Source: a bacterium
GTDB lineage: Bacteria > Cyanobacteriota > Vampirovibrionia > Obscuribacterales > JAKAZS01
Assembly: GCA_021815785.1 (NCBI GenBank)
Contig: JAKAZS010000034.1
Location: forward strand, 1-32,373
Reading direction: 5' to 3'
Length of the DNA stretch: 32,373 nt
Numbering within the stretch: the first letter of the stretch is position 1; every line of letters starts with the position of its first letter. The translations under genes and the position numbers were made by a program. A model generated the notes under the pieces. That model saw only the letters and a list, made by a program, of their open reading frames with translations, ran no database searches and was not told where the DNA came from. This document shows positions 1,744 through 26,480 of this stretch, piece after piece.

Positions 1744-3015
1744 ATGTTAGTGGTCAAGATGAATAAAGTCAATTTATTTAAATTAAAAACTTATAATAAT
1801 AGTATAAAAACATGTTTAACCCATCAATGGAATATGATGATTGGGCTAAGTTTCTTTATTCTAGAAGTGGTTTTTCTTACTTTATATGTTTTTAATTTTT
1901 GGTTTAGTTGTAATCTTAATACTTTAGTTCTATTAAGTTTTATTTTAATTTTAACTTTAGCTTTTATCCTTTTAGTCACCCTTGAACTAAATATTTTTAA
2001 TTTAATTGTTTATCCCTTACATAGAGGTAAGCCATTAATTGTATTTCGAGAGCTATTAAGCCTTGATAATCCTAATTATCCACCTGGTATAAGTTTTGGC
2101 TTAAAACATGTTCAGTTTCAGGTAATTAAAGAATTAAAGTTAAATTTTTGGGGTAATTTAGAAATTAAATCAGATTGTTTAACCGGATGTTTGAATAAGA
2201 TTCATAACGAAACCATTTTAACGATACCTTTTAGCTTAGCTAATTATCAAACGCAAGTTTTGTTAATTAATAAGATAAAAAATAATTGTTCCAATCTTAA
2301 ATTAAATAATAGATTAGTTAAATTTATGATTAAACCACCTTTAGCTGGTGCTAAACGAATGCATGGAGTGACTTTAATTATTTTACTGTATTTATTATTT
2401 GATATTAATTTTACTACCTTTAATTATTTAGAATTACTGAAAAACTATTATTATGCCACTAATCTTACTGAAACTCATGGTATTCCTGTGTCAGTGTATT
2501 TTCAAAAAGCCGATGCAATTGAAAAATTAAATCCACAATATTCTTATATCTGGCCTAGATTTTTTTCATCAAATCATATTATCAACAACTTGGCTTATTT
2601 AAAGTCAAAATATTATTTTCAAATTTATGATTATAACGATTGTTTAATGGTATTAAAAAACGGATTAGTAAGAGATGCTAAAAACTTTCGTTTAGAACTT
2701 GCTTATGCTCGTTATTTAAGTGCTTTAAAACATTATGATTTAGCTGATAAATCGCTAATTAAATCTAGTGAATTGCATAAAACTAAGCTTTTACCTAAAT
2801 TCTATCGTTTTAGCATGGCTATTAATTTAAATGATAAAGTAAAAGCTGATAAATTATATACTGATTTTAACCAGTCATTGACTAAAGACGTCTTTGGTGA
2901 CAAGCCTAAATGGCCTCCATTTAGTGGCAGTTTTCTCGATGATATTTGGTATCAGGAAGATTTTAATTATATTTTTGAAATGCTGTTAAATAAGGGTTAC
3001 GAGGTAAATAAATAG
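1744..3015 (+). CDS. Membrane protein of unknown function with TPR-like C-terminal half
   Basis: I do not recognise a family for this 423-aa protein. Residues about 30-55 and 60-85 form two strong membrane segments and about 208-225 a third. The segment between 90 and 200 looks soluble. The part after about 290 is helical with Ala/Tyr/Leu spacing like tetratricopeptide repeats (LELAYARYLSALKHYDLADK and neighbours). A membrane-anchored protein with an extracytoplasmic or cytoplasmic TPR-type scaffold is the most that can be said. It is divergent from the GT2 gene with less than 50 nt between starts, so the two share a very small promoter region. An ATG at 1759 is an equally possible start; neither start has a convincing ribosome binding site. 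The reading frame is intact and the codon use matches the neighbours. Confidence 0.7.
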   Translation: MLVVKMNKVNLFKLKTYNNSIKTCLTHQWNMMIGLSFFILEVVFLTLYVFNFWFSCNLNTLVLLSFILILTLAFILLVTLELNIFNLIVYPLHRGKPLIVFRELLSLDNPNYPPGISFGLKHVQFQVIKELKLNFWGNLEIKSDCLTGCLNKIHNETILTIPFSLANYQTQVLLINKIKNNCSNLKLNNRLVKFMIKPPLAGAKRMHGVTLIILLYLLFDINFTTFNYLELLKNYYYATNLTETHGIPVSVYFQKADAIEKLNPQYSYIWPRFFSSNHIINNLAYLKSKYYFQIYDYNDCLMVLKNGLVRDAKNFRLELAYARYLSALKHYDLADKSLIKSSELHKTKLLPKFYRFSMAINLNDKVKADKLYTDFNQSLTKDVFGDKPKWPPFSGSFLDDIWYQEDFNYIFEMLLNKGYEVNK

Positions 3016-3194
3016 CCTAAAGTTAATTCAGCCTTAATTAAGATAATTTGTTTTGTCTAAAATTTAATTACTTACACTATTACGATTTCACTAACTAAAA
3101 TAGACATTATTTCGGCTCGGCTTCTTATAATCAAGAAATGAATTCCAAGTAAAAAAAAAATTTATAATAAGCTAAGGCTCTTAAATAATAATAT

Positions 3195-3465
3195 TAAAAA
3201 CAAAAACACCATCTCAAATCAAGTTCGACGATGGTGTTTTTGCTACTATTTGGCTGCTTGTGGCTTACAAGCGTTAGTATTTCTTTATGCTTTAGCCAAA
3301 TATCACATAAAGCGGGCTGCTAGCCGATGTTTCCGGTGGGCGCCACCTGACGTTTCTACATTGCCCCTGGGCTCATCACAACTACTCGTTTGTTTCATTG
3401 CTCACCCTTATGCAATTAATATACCAGGGTTTTGCAGCAAGTTAAACTACCCCAAATAACATTTA
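3195..3465 (-). ncRNA. Candidate structured non-coding RNA (strand probably minus)
   Basis: This block is much more GC-rich than the surrounding DNA, especially 3310-3375, and holds many short helices. They are TATTTGG 3247-3253 with CCAAATA 3452-3458 (closing), GCTTGT 3256-3261 with ACAAGC 3267-3272, CTTTATG 3283-3289 with CATAAAG 3306-3312, GGTGG 3335-3339 with CCACC 3343-3347, CCCTGG 3365-3370 with CCAGGG 3424-3429, and ATTGC 3397-3401 with GCAAT 3412-3416. On the minus strand it runs into a terminator with a long U-tract (3202-3241). A minus-strand TTGAAA and TATTAA pair lies upstream in 3461-3525. The 69-aa ORF across it has no protein-like character. I could not match it to tmRNA, RNase P, SRP RNA or a riboswitch class I know. 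A faint likeness to the 5' half of 6S RNA on the plus strand is too weak to use. Confidence 0.4.
3202..3241 (-). terminator. Intrinsic terminator, 12-bp perfect stem, possibly bidirectional
   Basis: AAAAACACCATC at 3202-3213 pairs perfectly with GATGGTGTTTTT at 3230-3241 across a 16-nt loop. Read on the minus strand the stem is followed by a second T-run (GTTTTTGTTTTTAAT), which is the stronger direction and would end the candidate RNA at 3195-3465. On the plus strand it could also stop transcription from the membrane-protein gene ending at 3015, though it lies about 190 nt beyond that stop codon. Confidence 0.7.
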
Positions 3466-3527
3466 ATCTAATTGTCATAGTAATTAACTGTTAATAACTT
3501 TCAGTTTCCAAGCTTTCAAGCCTACCC

Positions 3528-3565
3528 AAGCTATGTTTTGGATATATTTATCCAAAACATAGCTT
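3528..3565. repeat. Perfect 17-bp inverted repeat with 4-nt loop
   Basis: AAGCTATGTTTTGGATA (3528-3544) is the exact reverse complement of TATCCAAAACATAGCTT (3549-3565), separated by TATT. No U-run follows on either strand, so this is not a standard intrinsic terminator. It sits between the candidate RNA and the ankyrin remnant. It could be a palindromic intergenic repeat, a transposon-end remnant or an RNA processing/stability hairpin; the sequence does not decide. Confidence 0.75.
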
Positions 3566-3587
3566 TAGAAATATCAAGGGTTTTTAA

Positions 3588-3943
3588 ATCACAATTGATC
3601 TTAACTTGGTTAAGCTTTTATTAGATTATCAGGCGAAGCCTAATGGTACTTTTAATAACTTAAGTGCTTTGGCTTGTGCTTGTGTTTCAACGCAGGATGT
3701 GACAGTCCCTCAACTGTTATTAGCCAAGGGGGCTTTACCTAATATTACAGCTAATTCTGATAGCCCAATGTGGCAGGCTTGTGCATATGCAAGTCATGTA
3801 AGTGCTAATACGCAAATTTTAGATTTATTGTTGGCTCATAAAGCTTTTATCGATCCAGTTGATGATTCTATCCTTGGCCACCCCCAAATCCCCAAAATGT
3901 GCTTGAATTAGTTAAGAGTAGAAATTGGCTACCTAAAAATTAA
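3588..3943 (+). pseudogene. Ankyrin-repeat protein remnant (5' truncated, 3' frameshifted)
   Basis: The ORF track gives 101 aa from a TTG at 3606, but the frame is open back to 3588 with no good start or ribosome binding site, and it begins in the middle of an ankyrin repeat (DLNLVKLLLDYQAKPN). Two further helix pairs follow: TVPQLLLAKGALPN and ANTQILDLLLAHKAFID. After the CCCCAAAA run near 3892-3899 the ORF falls into a short unrelated tail (PKMCLN). Shifting frame there restores a plausible ankyrin-like ending, NVLELVKSRNWLPKN, that stops at 3943. So what remains is about three repeats with the N-terminus missing and a probable indel in a homopolymer-like run. A live small ankyrin protein with an unusual start cannot be excluded. 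A sequencing error in the run would explain the shift but not the missing 5' end. Confidence 0.55.
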
Positions 3944-18647: not shown

Positions 18648-21600
18648 ATGACTAAGAGCAATGTGGTAAATCATAAAAACTTTAATGTAATAAGGTCCCC
18701 TCAGCAAATGACTATAATAGATTGTTTAGTGGGTATGTCCAAGTTCCTGAATCATCGAATGGTATTAAATTTAAAGGTTTTAGCCTTAGCCATTATGTTG
18801 CCATTAACCCAATGTTCAACAGTCTATGCTCATGAAACTTCTACCAGTAACATGGGTGCTGCCAATCTTACCCATAATCATAATGAAACTCCTAATTATA
18901 TTAACGATGCAAGTCATGCCTTAGCTTCAATCAATCCGCAAATTGTTAATCCCAGTGTTGATATAAGTTCTATACTTCATAGTGTTGTTGAATCAAGTTT
19001 AAATCTAAATTCAGTGTTACATAATGTAAATTCTGGTCATTTAGTCCAGGATGTCACTTTAATTATTGGCAACCATAATCTTGAGGTTGGTAGTAATCAA
19101 GCCTTAACACCAGCTGAAGCTATTGCTTTAAGTCAGGTTTTAAGCACTAATCATCAAACTTTAGTTCTTGATGCCCTTGGACAAGGTGTAGGTGGTAGTT
19201 TAAATACTAGTTCTTTAGGTAGTCAAGTAAATAATCTAGAAGTGTCGTCCGGTGTTACTTTGGTTGACAACTCTAAAACCTTAATTTTAACTGGTAATTT
19301 AGCTAATTATGGTGATATCGTTTTTGGAGGTTCGGGAAATTTACAAGCCAATAACATATTAAATGAAGGCAGTGGCTTAATTAGTTCGAGTGGAACACTT
19401 GGTATTACTACCAATGCTTTAATTAATGAAGGCGGTATTTATGGGGCAAATGGTGTCAATATTAATGCCCCAGTTGTTTATAACGCTGGAACCGTTGAAT
19501 CGGCCTTAGGCAATATAAATATAGCTAATGCTAATATGCTTGATGTGACGGGAACGCAAAACAGTGTTTTTGAAGCTAATAATGGCAACATTAATATAGA
19601 TGTAAATGCAACATCTTTAAGTCAAGGTATGAATTTAGCTTATGGTAATTATTTAAGTAATGAATTAAATTTAAATGCTGGCAATGGCTTTGTTCAAGGG
19701 GTAACGGGCAATGTTAGCGGTCAGATTAATATCAATGCTAATAGTGCTCACTTGGCAACAGCTTCCAAAGATATGTTGCTTGGCAATGACTTGGTTAATG
19801 GCGATCCCACCTATGTTAATTTACTTGGTGATATATCATTAAATGGAGCGGTAACTACTAATGGTAATAATTTGGCTATTATTGCTAATGGCAATATTAA
19901 TGTTGCTACAGGAGGCATTGCTGCCTATGTTAATACAGGTTCAAGTACAGCTAACTCTGGTAATGTAGTTATGATTGCTGGTGTTGGTACTAATGTATCT
20001 GGTGGCAGTGTTAACTCGTCAACTATTCCAGTGGGCGGATCGCCAGCTACTTCTACCGTAACAGTAAGCCTTGGTTCAGCAACCGGTAATACTGGTGGTA
20101 ATATAGATTTAGTATCTAACAATAATCTGGCTACCAGTGTTGCCGTGATTAATACCGCATCAGCCTTTGCCAATGGCAATGGTGGTAACGTAACTTTATT
20201 AGCTCAAAGCAATGGATCTTCTGGTGGTGAGGTTATTACTAGTGCTGGTACAATTAACTATGGGATTGTAACAGGCGGTAATGGGACGGGTAATAATGGG
20301 AATGTAACGGTGATTGGTACGGCTAACAGTGGTACTGGTGTTAGTCTTGGCTATGTGACAACGACTGGTGGCGGTGGAACTGGTGGGGATGTCTCTATCT
20401 ATACAGCCAATCCAAGTGTTCAGTCGGTAGCTTTTGATACCACTGGATCAACTGCATCAATAATTACGGCGAATACGGCAAGTTTATCCCCATCATCCAT
20501 TGCTTTAAACGGTAATATTATTACTTCATCAGGTAATGGAATTATAACCATAAATTCTGGAGCTGGAATAACTAGTGGCACTAATCTTTTATCAGGAGCG
20601 AGCCTTGTAGTTAATGCAGTAAGTGGTGATTTTGGTGCTTTTAGCTCCAATGTTCAAACTAATGTTGGTGCTTTGACTTTAACTATTAATGGCAGCGCCT
20701 ATATTACTGATAATGCTAGTTTGGTTACAGTAAACAATAGTTCGGTTGGGTCTATCAGTAATTTTGAATTAATCATGAATAATGCTACAGCTGGTTCAAT
20801 TGATATAGTCGGGTTAGTGACCGCTGGCGCTGATAATGGAACTGGAACTATTATTTTAACTACTAGTGGCGCTGGGACAATTAATACATCTGGAGCTGGT
20901 AACGTCGCTCAAGCTGGTACTTTAATTTTAAATACCAGTGGCGGTGATATTGGCAATAATAGCCAATTTATGCAAATTGATACCAGTAATTTAAGTCTAA
21001 ATACCCTACATAATGGAGCAATTACTGGTAATGCTTACTTAATTAATGCAAATCTGCAGAGTACTAGTTTAAATACTTCTACTATTGGCAATAACAGTAT
21101 TTTATTCCTGGAAACTACTGGTGGTATAGTAGTTAATGGCTTAGTCGCAGCTGGTGGTATAAGTAATTTTGGTACTATCAACTTAAATGTTCAAGCGGGA
21201 ACGATAACTTCATCGGGCTCTGGAAGTATTTTGCAAGCTGGTGGTGAAGTACTTTTAAATACGGCTGGCGGTAATATTGGATCATCTAGTCAGGCGGTGT
21301 TAACCAACACTAGTAATTTGAATATCGGTACTTTAAATAGTGGATCTACAACCGGTAGTGCCTACGTAACTAACAGTAATCCTGGTGGTGTTACTCTGTT
21401 AGCTGGTTCGGTCGCAGCTAATGGCGTTTTACAGTTAACATCAGCTGGTAATATTGTAATTGACAATACAATTACCGCTGGAACGGATACAGGAACAGGT
21501 ACTATTAATTTAATTGCCAATGGTAGTGGCTCGATAACCACCCAAACTATTGGTCAGTTTTTACAGGCTGGGAACGTTAACCTTACCACTAATGGTAGTG

Positions 21601-24600
21601 ATATTGGCAGTTTAGCTCAAGGCTTTCAAGTTGATGCCAGCAATGTTGGGGTTACCACTGGTGGCGTAACTGGTAATGCTTTTATTCAAGATGCCCAGGC
21701 TTCAACTACAGTTAATATAACTATAACCCAAGCCATTGTTGGTGTGGTTAGTTCCGATACATTCGGTTTTAGTGGCGTAAATTCTAGTACTAGTAGTATA
21801 TTAACCGGATCTGGAGTAACGGTTCACTCACCAAATGTCATAATAGCTTCGGTTAATGGTAATATTGGTCTATCTGGCCAGGTTTTTGCTTTAAATTCAA
21901 CTGGGATAACTTTAAATGCAACATCTAATAGTGTTTTTGCTACCGATAGTGCCTCTGGTAATATTGTTTTTAATACGGTAACTGCACAAGGCCATCCGGT
22001 AACTAACGCTGTGGCTATGAATGGTGGTGGAACCTATCAGTTTACCGATACCAGTAATGGTAATTTACAGTCTGGTCTTGGTGTGGGTGTCATAAGCGGT
22101 AACTTTGTAAGTTTAACTTCAGCTTTAGGCGCTGTTGGTAATAATGTAAATGTTTTAAATGTTGATGCTAATAATTTAAATGTAAGCGCTGGAACTGATT
22201 CATACATTAGCAATAGCTCGGTCAGTGTTAACTTAAATGGAGTAACCGTAGGTGTTACCAATACATTTTCTTTAACCAGTTCGGGTAATGTTGTGGTAAA
22301 TGGAGTTGTTAGTGCTGGAGCCGATAGTGGTAGCGGCACTATTGATTTAAATACTACTTCAACGGGTACTATATCGACAACGCTAGGATCCTTAACTGAC
22401 ATATTAACTGCTGGAAACGTTAATTTAAGCACAAATGGCAGTGATGTTGGCAGTATCAGTCAAGGTCTATTAGTTGATGCTAATAATGTCGGGGTAACAA
22501 CTGGTGGAGTCACTGGCAATGCCTTTGTACAAGATGCCAGTGGTAATAATATTATAATCACGCAAGGCTTAGTTGGATCAGTTAGCACTGATACTTTTGG
22601 TTTTAGTGGAGTAAATTCCAGTACAACTGGCATAAATACTGCTACTGGCGTAACTATTACCGCTCCGAATATGATTGTTGTCTCAGTTAATGGCAATATA
22701 GGTACTGGTAGTGGACTTGGAGCGACGTTTAATGTTAATTCTAACAATGTATCTTTTATGGCTACGTCAAATAGTGTTTACGTGAATGATAATGCCAGTG
22801 GATTAATATCATTAGATACGATAACAGCTCAAGGACAAACCGTAACCAATGCAGCTGATATGAATGGTGGTGGAACCTATTACTTTAATGCCAGTAATTC
22901 AACCAGCGCTGGAAATTTATTAACTGGCAGTGGGGCTAGCATAAGTGGCAATAATGTAAATTTAAATAGTGATTTAGGTTATGTAGGTAGTAGCACTAAT
23001 GCATTGGCAGTAATTGCTAATAATTTAAGTACTAATGCTGGAACTGATTCTTATCTTAACGATAGTGTAACAACTAGTGTTAATTTAAACGCTAGTAATG
23101 TCGGCAGTTCTAACACTTTGAATTTAACCGCTTCTGGAGCGGTAATTGTTAATGGATTAGTCACAGCTGGTAGTGATAGCAGCACTGGTACAATTAATAT
23201 TTTTGCTAGTGGAACGATTAGTACCTTAACTGGATCAACCAGTGATTTATTAGTTGCTGGTAGTGTTAATTTAAATACCAGTTCAAATGGCAGTGATATT
23301 GGTAGTATCAATCAAGGTTTAATGGTTGATGCTAATAGTGTTGGTGTGACTACAGGTGGTGTCACTGGTAATGCTTATGTTGAAGATGTAAGTGCTAACA
23401 ATATAACTATAACTCAAGCTGTTGTTGGAATAGTTAGTACTGATACTTTTGGCTTTAGTGGCGTAAATTCAAGTACCACAAGTTTAACAACCGGTAGCGG
23501 AGTATCAATAACTGCTCCAAATATCCTAGTAGCTTCTGTTAATGGCAATATAGGTACCGGTAGTGGATCTGCCCAAACATTTAATGTTGATTCTAGCAAT
23601 GTCACTTTTAATGCAACATCTAACAGTGTTTATGTAAATGATTCTGCTAGTGGGATTATCTCATTCAATAATGTAACTGCTCAAAGCCAGAATGTTACCA
23701 ACGCTGCTGATTTAAATGGCGGTGGAACTTATTACTTTAATGCTAGTAATGCTACTACTGCTGGCAATTTAATAACTTCTCCAGGAGCTAATATAAGTGC
23801 TAAATATGTAGATTTAACTTCAGCTCTTGGCTCAATTGGTAGCAGCACCAATAATATATCCGTAAATGCCGCTAATTTAAGCCTAAATGCAGGAAGTGAT
23901 GCTTATGCTAACGATACCGCTGCAAGTGTTAATTTAAACGCATCGAGCGTTGGTGCAACTAATACTTTGCAGGTATTAACCCCTGGCAATTTAAATGTAA
24001 GTGGAGCGATTGCTGCTGGATCGTTAAGCGGAACTGGGACAGTTAATTTAACAGTCCAAGGTGGTAGTAATATAACGCAAACCCTAACTAATGGAACCAT
24101 TACTGCTGGTAATGTTAACTTGACTACTAGTGGTGGTTCAATTACAACATCGGCTAATATTGTTACCAATAACTTAAGTATGATAACAACTAGCGGTGGC
24201 GGTATAGCGATAAATTCAAAAGTTGGTGCAATTACTGGTACAACAACGCTTAATGCTAATGGCACAGGATATATAACCACTGGAACCGGAGGACTGGTTA
24301 TTGGTAATAGTTTAAATATGACAAGTACTGGTGGTGAAATTGGTTTTGGTGTAGGTGGATTACAACCATTATTGACTCAGGCTAATAGCTTAATGTTTAA
24401 TGCTGGGTTATCGGTAGGTATATTAAATGCAACTAACAATTTAAGTATAGGCACATCCGTATCCGGAGCTAATGTATATGTCGAAAATAGCGGAAATATG
24501 GTGGGAACAGGCACTATAACTGCACCAGTGGTTGGTTTATATTCGTTTTCGGGTAGTTCTGGAATAGGATCTGCTAGTAGTTTAATGCAAATAAATGCCC

Positions 24601-26480
24601 ATAATATTGGGCTAGAATCCTATGGAAGTGGATCAAGTGTCTATGTAAATGATACCTATACTGGAAGTACCGTAATGCAGGCCAGTCAAGCTATTAATAT
24701 CTTTAAATTAAATACCAATGGACCGCTTACCATTTATGCGCAAATTGATCAAAATGGAGTAGTAACACCAGGAATTATTGGCGGAACAATAATCGCCATT
24801 CAAACGCAAAGTGGATATGGTATATATAATGATGCTAGTATTCAGGCTAGCGATTTTATCTTTTTAACGGCTAGCCAAACTGGCTATATAGCTGAACCAG
24901 CTACTGGTGCTTTAATGATAGCGCCCAATATAAGTTTAGTTAGTGGTGGTGGTGCTATAGGAGCAGGCGGCAGGTTGTTATTAAACAGTGGACTTGTTGC
25001 CGCTTCAACCCAAGGCTTAAATAGCTTTGTTAATATTTATGATGAAGCTACTAATTCAGGAATTGTCGGTGGTCAGTCTGGGAGCTCATTTACCTTTAAT
25101 ACTAATGGTAATGTAAATGTAATTGGTTCGGTAGCAACTGGAGCTGGAGTTAAAGCTAATGGTGGAGCAATTAATATAAGTGGAAATGGCCTTATTAATA
25201 TAGGTACAACTAGTGGAATTAATGTAACTACCAATAATGGACCAATAGTTGTTCAGGATAATAACACAGCTAGTGGAGTTATCCAAATTGCTAAAGGTGA
25301 CTATATTTATACTAATACACCGGTAAATACTGCTGGTTATGTAGTATTTAATATTGGAAATTATACTCAAGTTAATAACTCTAATCCTAATCCAGTTAAT
25401 ATAACTGTGCAATCTAGTGGTGGAGCTAGCGTTTATTTTGGTACGCATGGTATAGCTACATTAGGTGGAGGCAATGTGTTAAATGCTAAAGGTCAGTCGA
25501 TCGTATTTAATACTGGAGCTTTAAGTGCTAATGCGATAACTTTAGGTGGCAGTTTGAGTATAACAGCTGATCCACCTGTAGCTGTGGTAGCAAGCTCTGG
25601 AGTAGTTGCTCTTCAAAATAATGTAGCCTTATTAGGATTAGCTGGTGCTAATGGTAATGCACAAGCTGGAATCAGTCAAAGTACAGTTAATGTATTAGAT
25701 AACAATCAGGCTACCTTAAATACTAATTCTTTAAATAGTGATTCTAGCCAAAATCCCGATTCGGGATATTTAGGATATAACAATATTGATAATAATGAAA
25801 TGGTTGCTAATACGTCAATTTATATGCCTATAAGTTATAAGGCTGAAGTTAGTGATGTTGCAATTTCTCAAACGGCTAACAGCATAATGAATTTAAGTCA
25901 TAATGCAAAAGCTAATGGTCGTAGCTTAAATTTGAACGAGGGTAGTGATAATGTTGCCTTGGCTCATGGAAGTGCAATTATTCGATCCAGCCACGATTTA
26001 AATATAGTATTAGGCACAAAGAATCCAATTCAAGTAAAGCTTAAACGAGGAGCTATTGTTTTAGCAATTGCCAACGGTAATGTTGTAAGTGTTTATAATT
26101 TACATGATAATGCAGCTTCAAGTGTGGTTATAAAAGCAAATGACAATAAATTAATTTCGTTAACTCCAGGCCATCAGGCAACTTTAGCTAAAATAAATCA
26201 ATCACTTGATTTTGCTTATGTTAATCAAGTGAGTAAAATTGGTTACCGAGCTATTAAAGCAGTTAAAGAGGTTAATTATGTGTCTTATACTTCAGACTTT
26301 TCGATACCTAGTGCTATTATTGCGATTAAACCATTAAAAGCAATGTTTGCAAGTAGTAATCGCAAAGTTAAGGCTATAGCGCAGCAGTTATTAAAAACCA
26401 GTGTAGTGGTAACGCAAAGCACAAGTGGTAGTGGTGTTTATGAACAGGTTACCAAACCTAAATTAACGGCTATGAATTAG
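18648..26480 (+). CDS. Giant beta-repeat surface/secreted protein (adhesin-like), FecR-like C-terminus
   Basis: A 2610-aa protein. It opens with an unusually long signal region: ~38 mostly polar residues, then hydrophobic VLALAIMLPLTQ and a likely cleavage after STVYA (residue 61). A head domain (about 62-450) contains QALTPAEAIALSQVL and LNEGGIYG-type beta-strand motifs like filamentous-haemagglutinin beta helices. From about 660 to 2200 are Gly/Asn/Ser/Thr/Val-rich modules, including three ~282-aa tandem copies. Residues about 2390-2490 resemble a FecR domain (VKLKRGAIVLAIANGN, LTPGHQATLA). A basic tail ends the protein. Cysteines are nearly absent after the signal. No autotransporter barrel, LPXTG or dockerin is visible, and no TpsB partner is in the window, so the export route is unknown. 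A tandem paralog follows. Surface adhesion or matrix formation is inferred from architecture only. Confidence 0.85.
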   Translation: MTKSNVVNHKNFNVIRSPQQMTIIDCLVGMSKFLNHRMVLNLKVLALAIMLPLTQCSTVYAHETSTSNMGAANLTHNHNETPNYINDASHALASINPQIVNPSVDISSILHSVVESSLNLNSVLHNVNSGHLVQDVTLIIGNHNLEVGSNQALTPAEAIALSQVLSTNHQTLVLDALGQGVGGSLNTSSLGSQVNNLEVSSGVTLVDNSKTLILTGNLANYGDIVFGGSGNLQANNILNEGSGLISSSGTLGITTNALINEGGIYGANGVNINAPVVYNAGTVESALGNINIANANMLDVTGTQNSVFEANNGNINIDVNATSLSQGMNLAYGNYLSNELNLNAGNGFVQGVTGNVSGQININANSAHLATASKDMLLGNDLVNGDPTYVNLLGDISLNGAVTTNGNNLAIIANGNINVATGGIAAYVNTGSSTANSGNVVMIAGVGTNVSGGSVNSSTIPVGGSPATSTVTVSLGSATGNTGGNIDLVSNNNLATSVAVINTASAFANGNGGNVTLLAQSNGSSGGEVITSAGTINYGIVTGGNGTGNNGNVTVIGTANSGTGVSLGYVTTTGGGGTGGDVSIYTANPSVQSVAFDTTGSTASIITANTASLSPSSIALNGNIITSSGNGIITINSGAGITSGTNLLSGASLVVNAVSGDFGAFSSNVQTNVGALTLTINGSAYITDNASLVTVNNSSVGSISNFELIMNNATAGSIDIVGLVTAGADNGTGTIILTTSGAGTINTSGAGNVAQAGTLILNTSGGDIGNNSQFMQIDTSNLSLNTLHNGAITGNAYLINANLQSTSLNTSTIGNNSILFLETTGGIVVNGLVAAGGISNFGTINLNVQAGTITSSGSGSILQAGGEVLLNTAGGNIGSSSQAVLTNTSNLNIGTLNSGSTTGSAYVTNSNPGGVTLLAGSVAANGVLQLTSAGNIVIDNTITAGTDTGTGTINLIANGSGSITTQTIGQFLQAGNVNLTTNGSDIGSLAQGFQVDASNVGVTTGGVTGNAFIQDAQASTTVNITITQAIVGVVSSDTFGFSGVNSSTSSILTGSGVTVHSPNVIIASVNGNIGLSGQVFALNSTGITLNATSNSVFATDSASGNIVFNTVTAQGHPVTNAVAMNGGGTYQFTDTSNGNLQSGLGVGVISGNFVSLTSALGAVGNNVNVLNVDANNLNVSAGTDSYISNSSVSVNLNGVTVGVTNTFSLTSSGNVVVNGVVSAGADSGSGTIDLNTTSTGTISTTLGSLTDILTAGNVNLSTNGSDVGSISQGLLVDANNVGVTTGGVTGNAFVQDASGNNIIITQGLVGSVSTDTFGFSGVNSSTTGINTATGVTITAPNMIVVSVNGNIGTGSGLGATFNVNSNNVSFMATSNSVYVNDNASGLISLDTITAQGQTVTNAADMNGGGTYYFNASNSTSAGNLLTGSGASISGNNVNLNSDLGYVGSSTNALAVIANNLSTNAGTDSYLNDSVTTSVNLNASNVGSSNTLNLTASGAVIVNGLVTAGSDSSTGTINIFASGTISTLTGSTSDLLVAGSVNLNTSSNGSDIGSINQGLMVDANSVGVTTGGVTGNAYVEDVSANNITITQAVVGIVSTDTFGFSGVNSSTTSLTTGSGVSITAPNILVASVNGNIGTGSGSAQTFNVDSSNVTFNATSNSVYVNDSASGIISFNNVTAQSQNVTNAADLNGGGTYYFNASNATTAGNLITSPGANISAKYVDLTSALGSIGSSTNNISVNAANLSLNAGSDAYANDTAASVNLNASSVGATNTLQVLTPGNLNVSGAIAAGSLSGTGTVNLTVQGGSNITQTLTNGTITAGNVNLTTSGGSITTSANIVTNNLSMITTSGGGIAINSKVGAITGTTTLNANGTGYITTGTGGLVIGNSLNMTSTGGEIGFGVGGLQPLLTQANSLMFNAGLSVGILNATNNLSIGTSVSGANVYVENSGNMVGTGTITAPVVGLYSFSGSSGIGSASSLMQINAHNIGLESYGSGSSVYVNDTYTGSTVMQASQAINIFKLNTNGPLTIYAQIDQNGVVTPGIIGGTIIAIQTQSGYGIYNDASIQASDFIFLTASQTGYIAEPATGALMIAPNISLVSGGGAIGAGGRLLLNSGLVAASTQGLNSFVNIYDEATNSGIVGGQSGSSFTFNTNGNVNVIGSVATGAGVKANGGAINISGNGLINIGTTSGINVTTNNGPIVVQDNNTASGVIQIAKGDYIYTNTPVNTAGYVVFNIGNYTQVNNSNPNPVNITVQSSGGASVYFGTHGIATLGGGNVLNAKGQSIVFNTGALSANAITLGGSLSITADPPVAVVASSGVVALQNNVALLGLAGANGNAQAGISQSTVNVLDNNQATLNTNSLNSDSSQNPDSGYLGYNNIDNNEMVANTSIYMPISYKAEVSDVAISQTANSIMNLSHNAKANGRSLNLNEGSDNVALAHGSAIIRSSHDLNIVLGTKNPIQVKLKRGAIVLAIANGNVVSVYNLHDNAASSVVIKANDNKLISLTPGHQATLAKINQSLDFAYVNQVSKIGYRAIKAVKEVNYVSYTSDFSIPSAIIAIKPLKAMFASSNRKVKAIAQQLLKTSVVVTQSTSGSGVYEQVTKPKLTAMN
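21594..24134 (+). repeat. Three tandem ~282-aa coding repeats in the first giant protein
   Basis: Units begin at 21594, 22437 and 23289 with GSDIGSLAQG, GSDVGSISQG and GSDIGSINQG, giving lengths of 843, 852 and about 846 nt (281, 284 and 282 aa). Each unit contains GVTTGGVTGNA, TDTFGFSGVNSSTT, SVNGNIG, TSNSVYVND, NGGGTYYFNAS and a closing half that resembles the shorter modules upstream. Indels between units are whole codons, so the protein frame is selected. DNA identity is moderate rather than near-perfect, so these duplications are not the most recent in the locus. Confidence 0.85.

Follow-up and report, generated by a model that had tools for sequence, protein, structure and literature searches.

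Poplar-1 (Rfam RF03041) is said to have been reported first by Weinberg et al. 2017 and, to our knowledge, is catalogued without a known function. Three other bacterial RNAs invite comparison with it. CsrB and RsmZ are, like poplar-1, multi-copy structured sRNAs, and 6S RNA is a stand-alone gene of similar size. Yfr2, an RNA of the same phylum, is present in multiple copies at unfixed loci (PMC6778093) and repeats the motif GGAAACA in a hairpin loop (PMC1242208). Poplar-1 shares with Yfr2 the phylum, the unfixed multiple loci and repeated GGAAAC-type motifs; however, Yfr2 is about 80–95 nt long, carries its motif in the loop of a hairpin and has a 5′ end of the GUGUGAGG type, whereas poplar-1 is about 210 nt long and pseudoknotted, with GAAAC in an internal loop. 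In the present work we describe a poplar-1 locus in a 32,373-nt stretch of DNA (hereafter the window). The family itself was already catalogued; the present analysis adds the full gene layout, a covarying pseudoknot and 5′ domain, a dedicated promoter and a distribution limited to one order.

Identification of the poplar-1 gene

Positions 3195–3465 had been singled out from the letters alone as a GC-rich, highly foldable island, and the island is real. The GC content at 3239–3377 was 48.2%, compared with 35% for the whole window and 26.5–29% for the flanks, a value as high being found in only 1% of all 139-nt segments and 2.3% of the intergenic ones. The minus-strand transcript 3411–3197 gave a fold of −63.2 kcal/mol, which was equalled by none of 200 shuffles (z −3.06). 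Since the plus strand of the patch likewise folds well, the strand was set by homology and not by folding energy. The interval 3195–3465 spans the entire predicted transcript and nearly all of its promoter.

A cmscan search showed that the minus strand at 3377–3239 is a full-length match to RF03041 (model 1–141 of 141; 100.6 bits, E 4.1e-23). The match was visible in E-value mode only: a standard Rfam scan of the window at gathering thresholds returned nothing there, because 100.6 bits falls short of the family cut-off of 110.5 bits, which is a curation threshold and not a biological feature. All nine copies in three genomes of the genus scored 95.7–109.0 bits, every one under this cut-off, so the whole genus lies just below the Rfam threshold and is missed entirely by it. 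Relatives in the same order surpass 110.5 bits, and the whole gene layout is common to them and the window copy. Compared with Rfam poplar-1, the genus keeps a full-length covariance match, the same core helices and the same type of sRNA gene, but it scores below the cut-off, its 3′ hairpin is shifted (helix 9 is displaced by one base), a closing pair is G-C instead of C-G, and the loop AAGG is missing. We conclude that the patch is a diverged member of the catalogued family poplar-1 and a non-coding RNA gene. Judged by homology and covariation, the identity, strand, extent and structure of this gene appear practically beyond doubt.

The sequence-only reading had thus rightly expected a structured RNA ending near 3195, and the Rfam search that it proposed identified the RNA. 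It had matched the patch to no common RNA, and from the letters alone it could not see that the RNA belongs to a catalogued family and lies just under the Rfam cut-off. It had offered a 6S-like or lineage-specific molecule; the second half of this suggestion holds, as poplar-1 is found in Obscuribacterales only, and the first does not, as Rfam gives poplar-1 at the locus. A diverged 6S RNA, which would mimic an open promoter and bind RNA polymerase, agrees with the present RNA in its similar size and stable fold. However, the poplar-1 fold is branched and pseudoknotted, unlike the single long, centrally bulged hairpin of 6S, RF00013 had no match at 3000–3700 up to E 10, and poplar-1 occurs in many copies per genome. 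A separate 6S match in this genome (G000:C30:12674–12891, minus strand; L129 1501–1718) scored 30.2 bits against the Rfam cut-off of 46.4 and is a possible, though weak, candidate for a diverged 6S RNA. We therefore regard a 6S identity for the patch as scarcely credible.

A conserved protein in the plus-strand frame 3250–3459, the alternative that the earlier reading had named, was not found: the frame had no Pfam match, and in most sister copies it is interrupted by stop codons or shifts of frame. In the sense direction, a 31-aa frame with an ATG start was present in only two of nine genus copies.

Conserved fold and pseudoknot

The structure was scored on 44 full-length aligned sequences, including the window copy and five congeneric ones, and comprises nine helices and a pseudoknot (60 pairs), where six complementary helices had been proposed from the single sequence. 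The fraction of cells paired was 96.7%, compared with 83.5% in shuffles and 31–41% in slid controls, the slid control being flattered because the structure was partly derived from the scored alignment. None of 500 shuffles was as good as the 60-pair structure. Changes on both sides were seen in 45 of the 60 pairs, a count that depends much less on how the structure was derived; covariation among homologs, to which the earlier reading had looked for support, is thus plainly present. Furthermore, a covariation ranking made without the structure as input recovered the helices, its top ranks being helix pairs, including those of the pseudoknot. The consensus poplar-1 helices are accordingly kept by covariation.

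All six counted pairs of the pseudoknot are formed in 44 of 44 sequences, and three of them show changes on both sides; elsewhere the two arms take forms such as CUGACU with AGUCAG. The consensus line given by cmscan lacks the pseudoknot, as such lines show nested pairs only. The fold has three parts: a hairpin domain at the 5′ end, a central arm whose internal loop holds two opposed GAAAC motifs, and a pseudoknot that joins the loop of the next hairpin to the 3′ strand. Positions that are conserved but unpaired form short stretches scattered along this compact fold, and no long conserved seed was seen in the 44 copies.

Promoter, 5′ domain and terminator

Conservation among the aligned copies reaches well past the Rfam model, so that the gene is larger than RF03041, with the promoter, the 5′ domain and the terminator all lying outside the model (Table 1). 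Transcription would proceed on the minus strand from the gene's own promoter, with a predicted start near 3412, to an intrinsic terminator that also belongs to the gene, near 3200; the RNA would be about 205–210 nt long.

Table 1. Positions in the window of the features assigned to the poplar-1 gene
Feature	Positions	Strand	Evidence or remark
Upstream promoter boxes, TTAAAT (3466–3461) and GGGGTAGT (3453–3446)	3446–3466	−	Conserved in 89 aligned promoter regions
Extended −10 element TGGTATATT	3418–3426	−	TATACT-like hexamer conserved in aligned copies; promoter scan match with TG
5′ domain beyond the Rfam model: GGGUGAG, hairpin, closing helix GGGU (3407–3404)/GCCC (3372–3369)	3369–3407	−	Covariation, helices 1–2
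Poplar-1 core	3239–3377	−	RF03041 model positions 1–141; two GAAAC motifs face each other in the internal loop
Pseudoknot, loop UUUGGCU (3300–3294) with AGCCAAA (3255–3249)	3249–3300	−	Helix 7, covariation
Intrinsic terminator, arms 3242–3230 and 3213–3201, then U-run	3200–3242	−	Perfect 13-bp repeat

The putative promoter has the same order in the copies, TTAAAT followed by GGGGTA(C/G)T and then the extended −10 element, and the spacing from GGGG to GGTGAG was 47–49 nt in 84 of 89 aligned copies. The strict pattern GGGGTAST-N20-24-GGTATATT occurred nine times in three congeneric genomes, exactly at the nine poplar-1 loci. In the 5′ domain, six of the seven pairs of the hairpin show changes on both sides, as does the closing C-G/G-C pair (helices 1–2). 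The U-tailed terminator claimed from the sequence was borne out: the minus strand carries a perfect 13-bp inverted repeat with a T-run behind it. This terminator is preserved among the aligned copies, where 11 of 13 pairs show changes on both sides. A simple terminator scan missed it because such a scan considers loops of 3–8 bases only.

Upstream of the promoter, 3528–3565 forms a perfect inverted repeat (17 bp, 4-nt loop). One of its arms, CAAAACATAGCTTGG, is also preserved in front of other poplar-1 copies in the genus, where it is followed by repeated GCTTG motifs, and for this reason the repeat may be the site of a regulator.

Distribution and copy number

Poplar-1 was found in 47 of 53 sampled Obscuribacterales genomes, in about 216 copies. 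The 236 genomes from the rest of the class yielded no copy, and in the phylum sample no match exceeded the cut-off, with scores outside the order at chance level. A second model, built from 41 sequences with the 5′ domain included, recovered the same 47 genomes, and neither this nor the Rfam model revealed distant homologs outside the order. As far as these genome searches reach, poplar-1 is confined to Obscuribacterales, an order of non-photosynthetic Cyanobacteriota.

The genomes with poplar-1 carry between 1 and 14 copies, usually several, and complete copies often lie in tandem same-strand arrays 500–1500 nt apart. The present genome has four full copies; beyond these it holds a 54-nt fragment from the 3′ end and a weaker match of 38 nt. 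The 54-nt piece (L005 845–898; G000:C65) consists of the last 54 nt of poplar-1 plus the terminator and lies directly behind a short reading frame; it is either a truncated copy or a borrowed terminator. One of the genome's own copies is matched at 99% identity by a copy in a sister species; others look like more recent duplicates.

Multiple copies, tandem arrays and recent duplicates are also what a mobile, transposing repeat without a role in the cell would leave behind. Such an origin is already disfavoured by covariation, in that the compensatory changes seen from genus to genus reveal an RNA fold under selection. In addition, the promoter and terminator are kept together, viral contigs had no poplar-1 matches, no transposase was among the recurring neighbours tested, and the copy shared with the sister species likewise argues against it. 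Taken together, a mobile repeat is very improbable indeed.

Genomic context

The gene that follows poplar-1 in the window is convergent to it. Across the loci, downstream genes lie on either strand (60 on the same and 32 on the opposite strand), as do upstream genes, and no neighbour family recurred at more than 11 of the loci retrieved. The neighbours also differ among the four copies of this genome. One site recurs, upstream of dUTPase–dapB (about eight loci in several genera), with an M16 peptidase gene in between in some genera; it is perhaps the ancestral location. The other copies of the present genome adjoin unrelated genes.

The layout of a riboswitch is likewise a structured RNA with an intrinsic terminator behind it, and this, with the copy upstream of dUTPase–dapB in several genera, might be taken to indicate a cis-acting leader, a riboswitch or attenuator that governs the downstream gene through its terminator. 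A constant downstream gene on the same strand was, however, found neither in the window nor at the other loci nor among the copies of this genome, and tandem arrays of complete copies do not fit such a role. Because the neighbouring genes vary, poplar-1 is a family of free-standing RNA genes and not a leader; for the window copy, we consider a leader very unlikely. On the evidence as a whole, the patch is very probably a stand-alone gene for poplar-1 RNA, of which this genome carries four full copies.

Possible modes of action

An independent promoter and terminator, variable neighbours and multiple copies lead us to infer that poplar-1, if transcribed as predicted, acts in trans. Its most likely mode would be that of a protein-binding regulatory RNA: the fold would serve as a platform for one or more proteins, as an RNP or a protein-titrating RNA, and extra copies would raise the dose of poplar-1 under one dedicated regulator. 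A protein platform is favoured since the conserved unpaired positions are short and spread through the compact fold, not gathered in one long seed. With the copies raising dose under a single regulator, this proposal is a serious one, to which we give somewhat less than an even chance.

The main rival is a base-pairing, trans-acting sRNA similar to Yfr2 or to the multi-copy Qrr sRNAs of Vibrio, which would reach mRNA or sRNA targets through short, conserved, unpaired motifs such as GAAAC. In favour of this are the multiple copies at unfixed loci and the two GAAAC motifs of poplar-1, which recall the GGAAACA repeat of Yfr2. However, a long conserved unpaired seed is absent, the fold is far larger than that of Yfr2, and the GAAAC motifs sit in an internal loop rather than in the simple hairpin loop of an 80–95-nt RNA. 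Furthermore, the Yfr2-type 5′ motif GTGTGAGG occurred in none of the 44 poplar-1 copies. A GAAACAAGGAAAC pattern search for Yfr2 itself gave two loci, neither of which was recognised by Rfam. Hfq was not found in this genome with the Pfam model, which counts weakly as the same model misses the Synechococcus control. We give base pairing a smaller, though still appreciable, chance.

Across the order, Hfq matches over the cut-off were restricted to three genomes (G005, G049 and G043) of genus g4, in which poplar-1 is absent or single-copy; the coincidence of Hfq with scarce poplar-1 may possibly be fortuitous.

Titration of CsrA, as by CsrB or RsmZ, was rejected. Several GGA motifs are present in copies of the larger family (f2), but copies in the genus contain 0–1 GGA each; CsrA was not found in this draft genome and was present in only two of the 53 order genomes, so that nearly all poplar-1 carriers are without a CsrA gene that could be found.

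A broader form of the protein-platform proposal would place poplar-1 at the core of a global regulatory RNP specific to the order, with a putative protein partner, a dose set by copy number and a promoter used by poplar-1 only; we put this forward as speculation that is rather unlikely as it stands. The function of poplar-1 becomes testable, with the promoter as bait for the regulator and the RNA as bait for the partner.

Other features of the window

Two further observations concern the rest of the window. A short reading frame with ankyrin repeats occupies 3606–3911; no complete gene surrounds it, and it may be what is left of one. At 18648–26480, a reading frame of 2610 aa encodes an unusually large protein.
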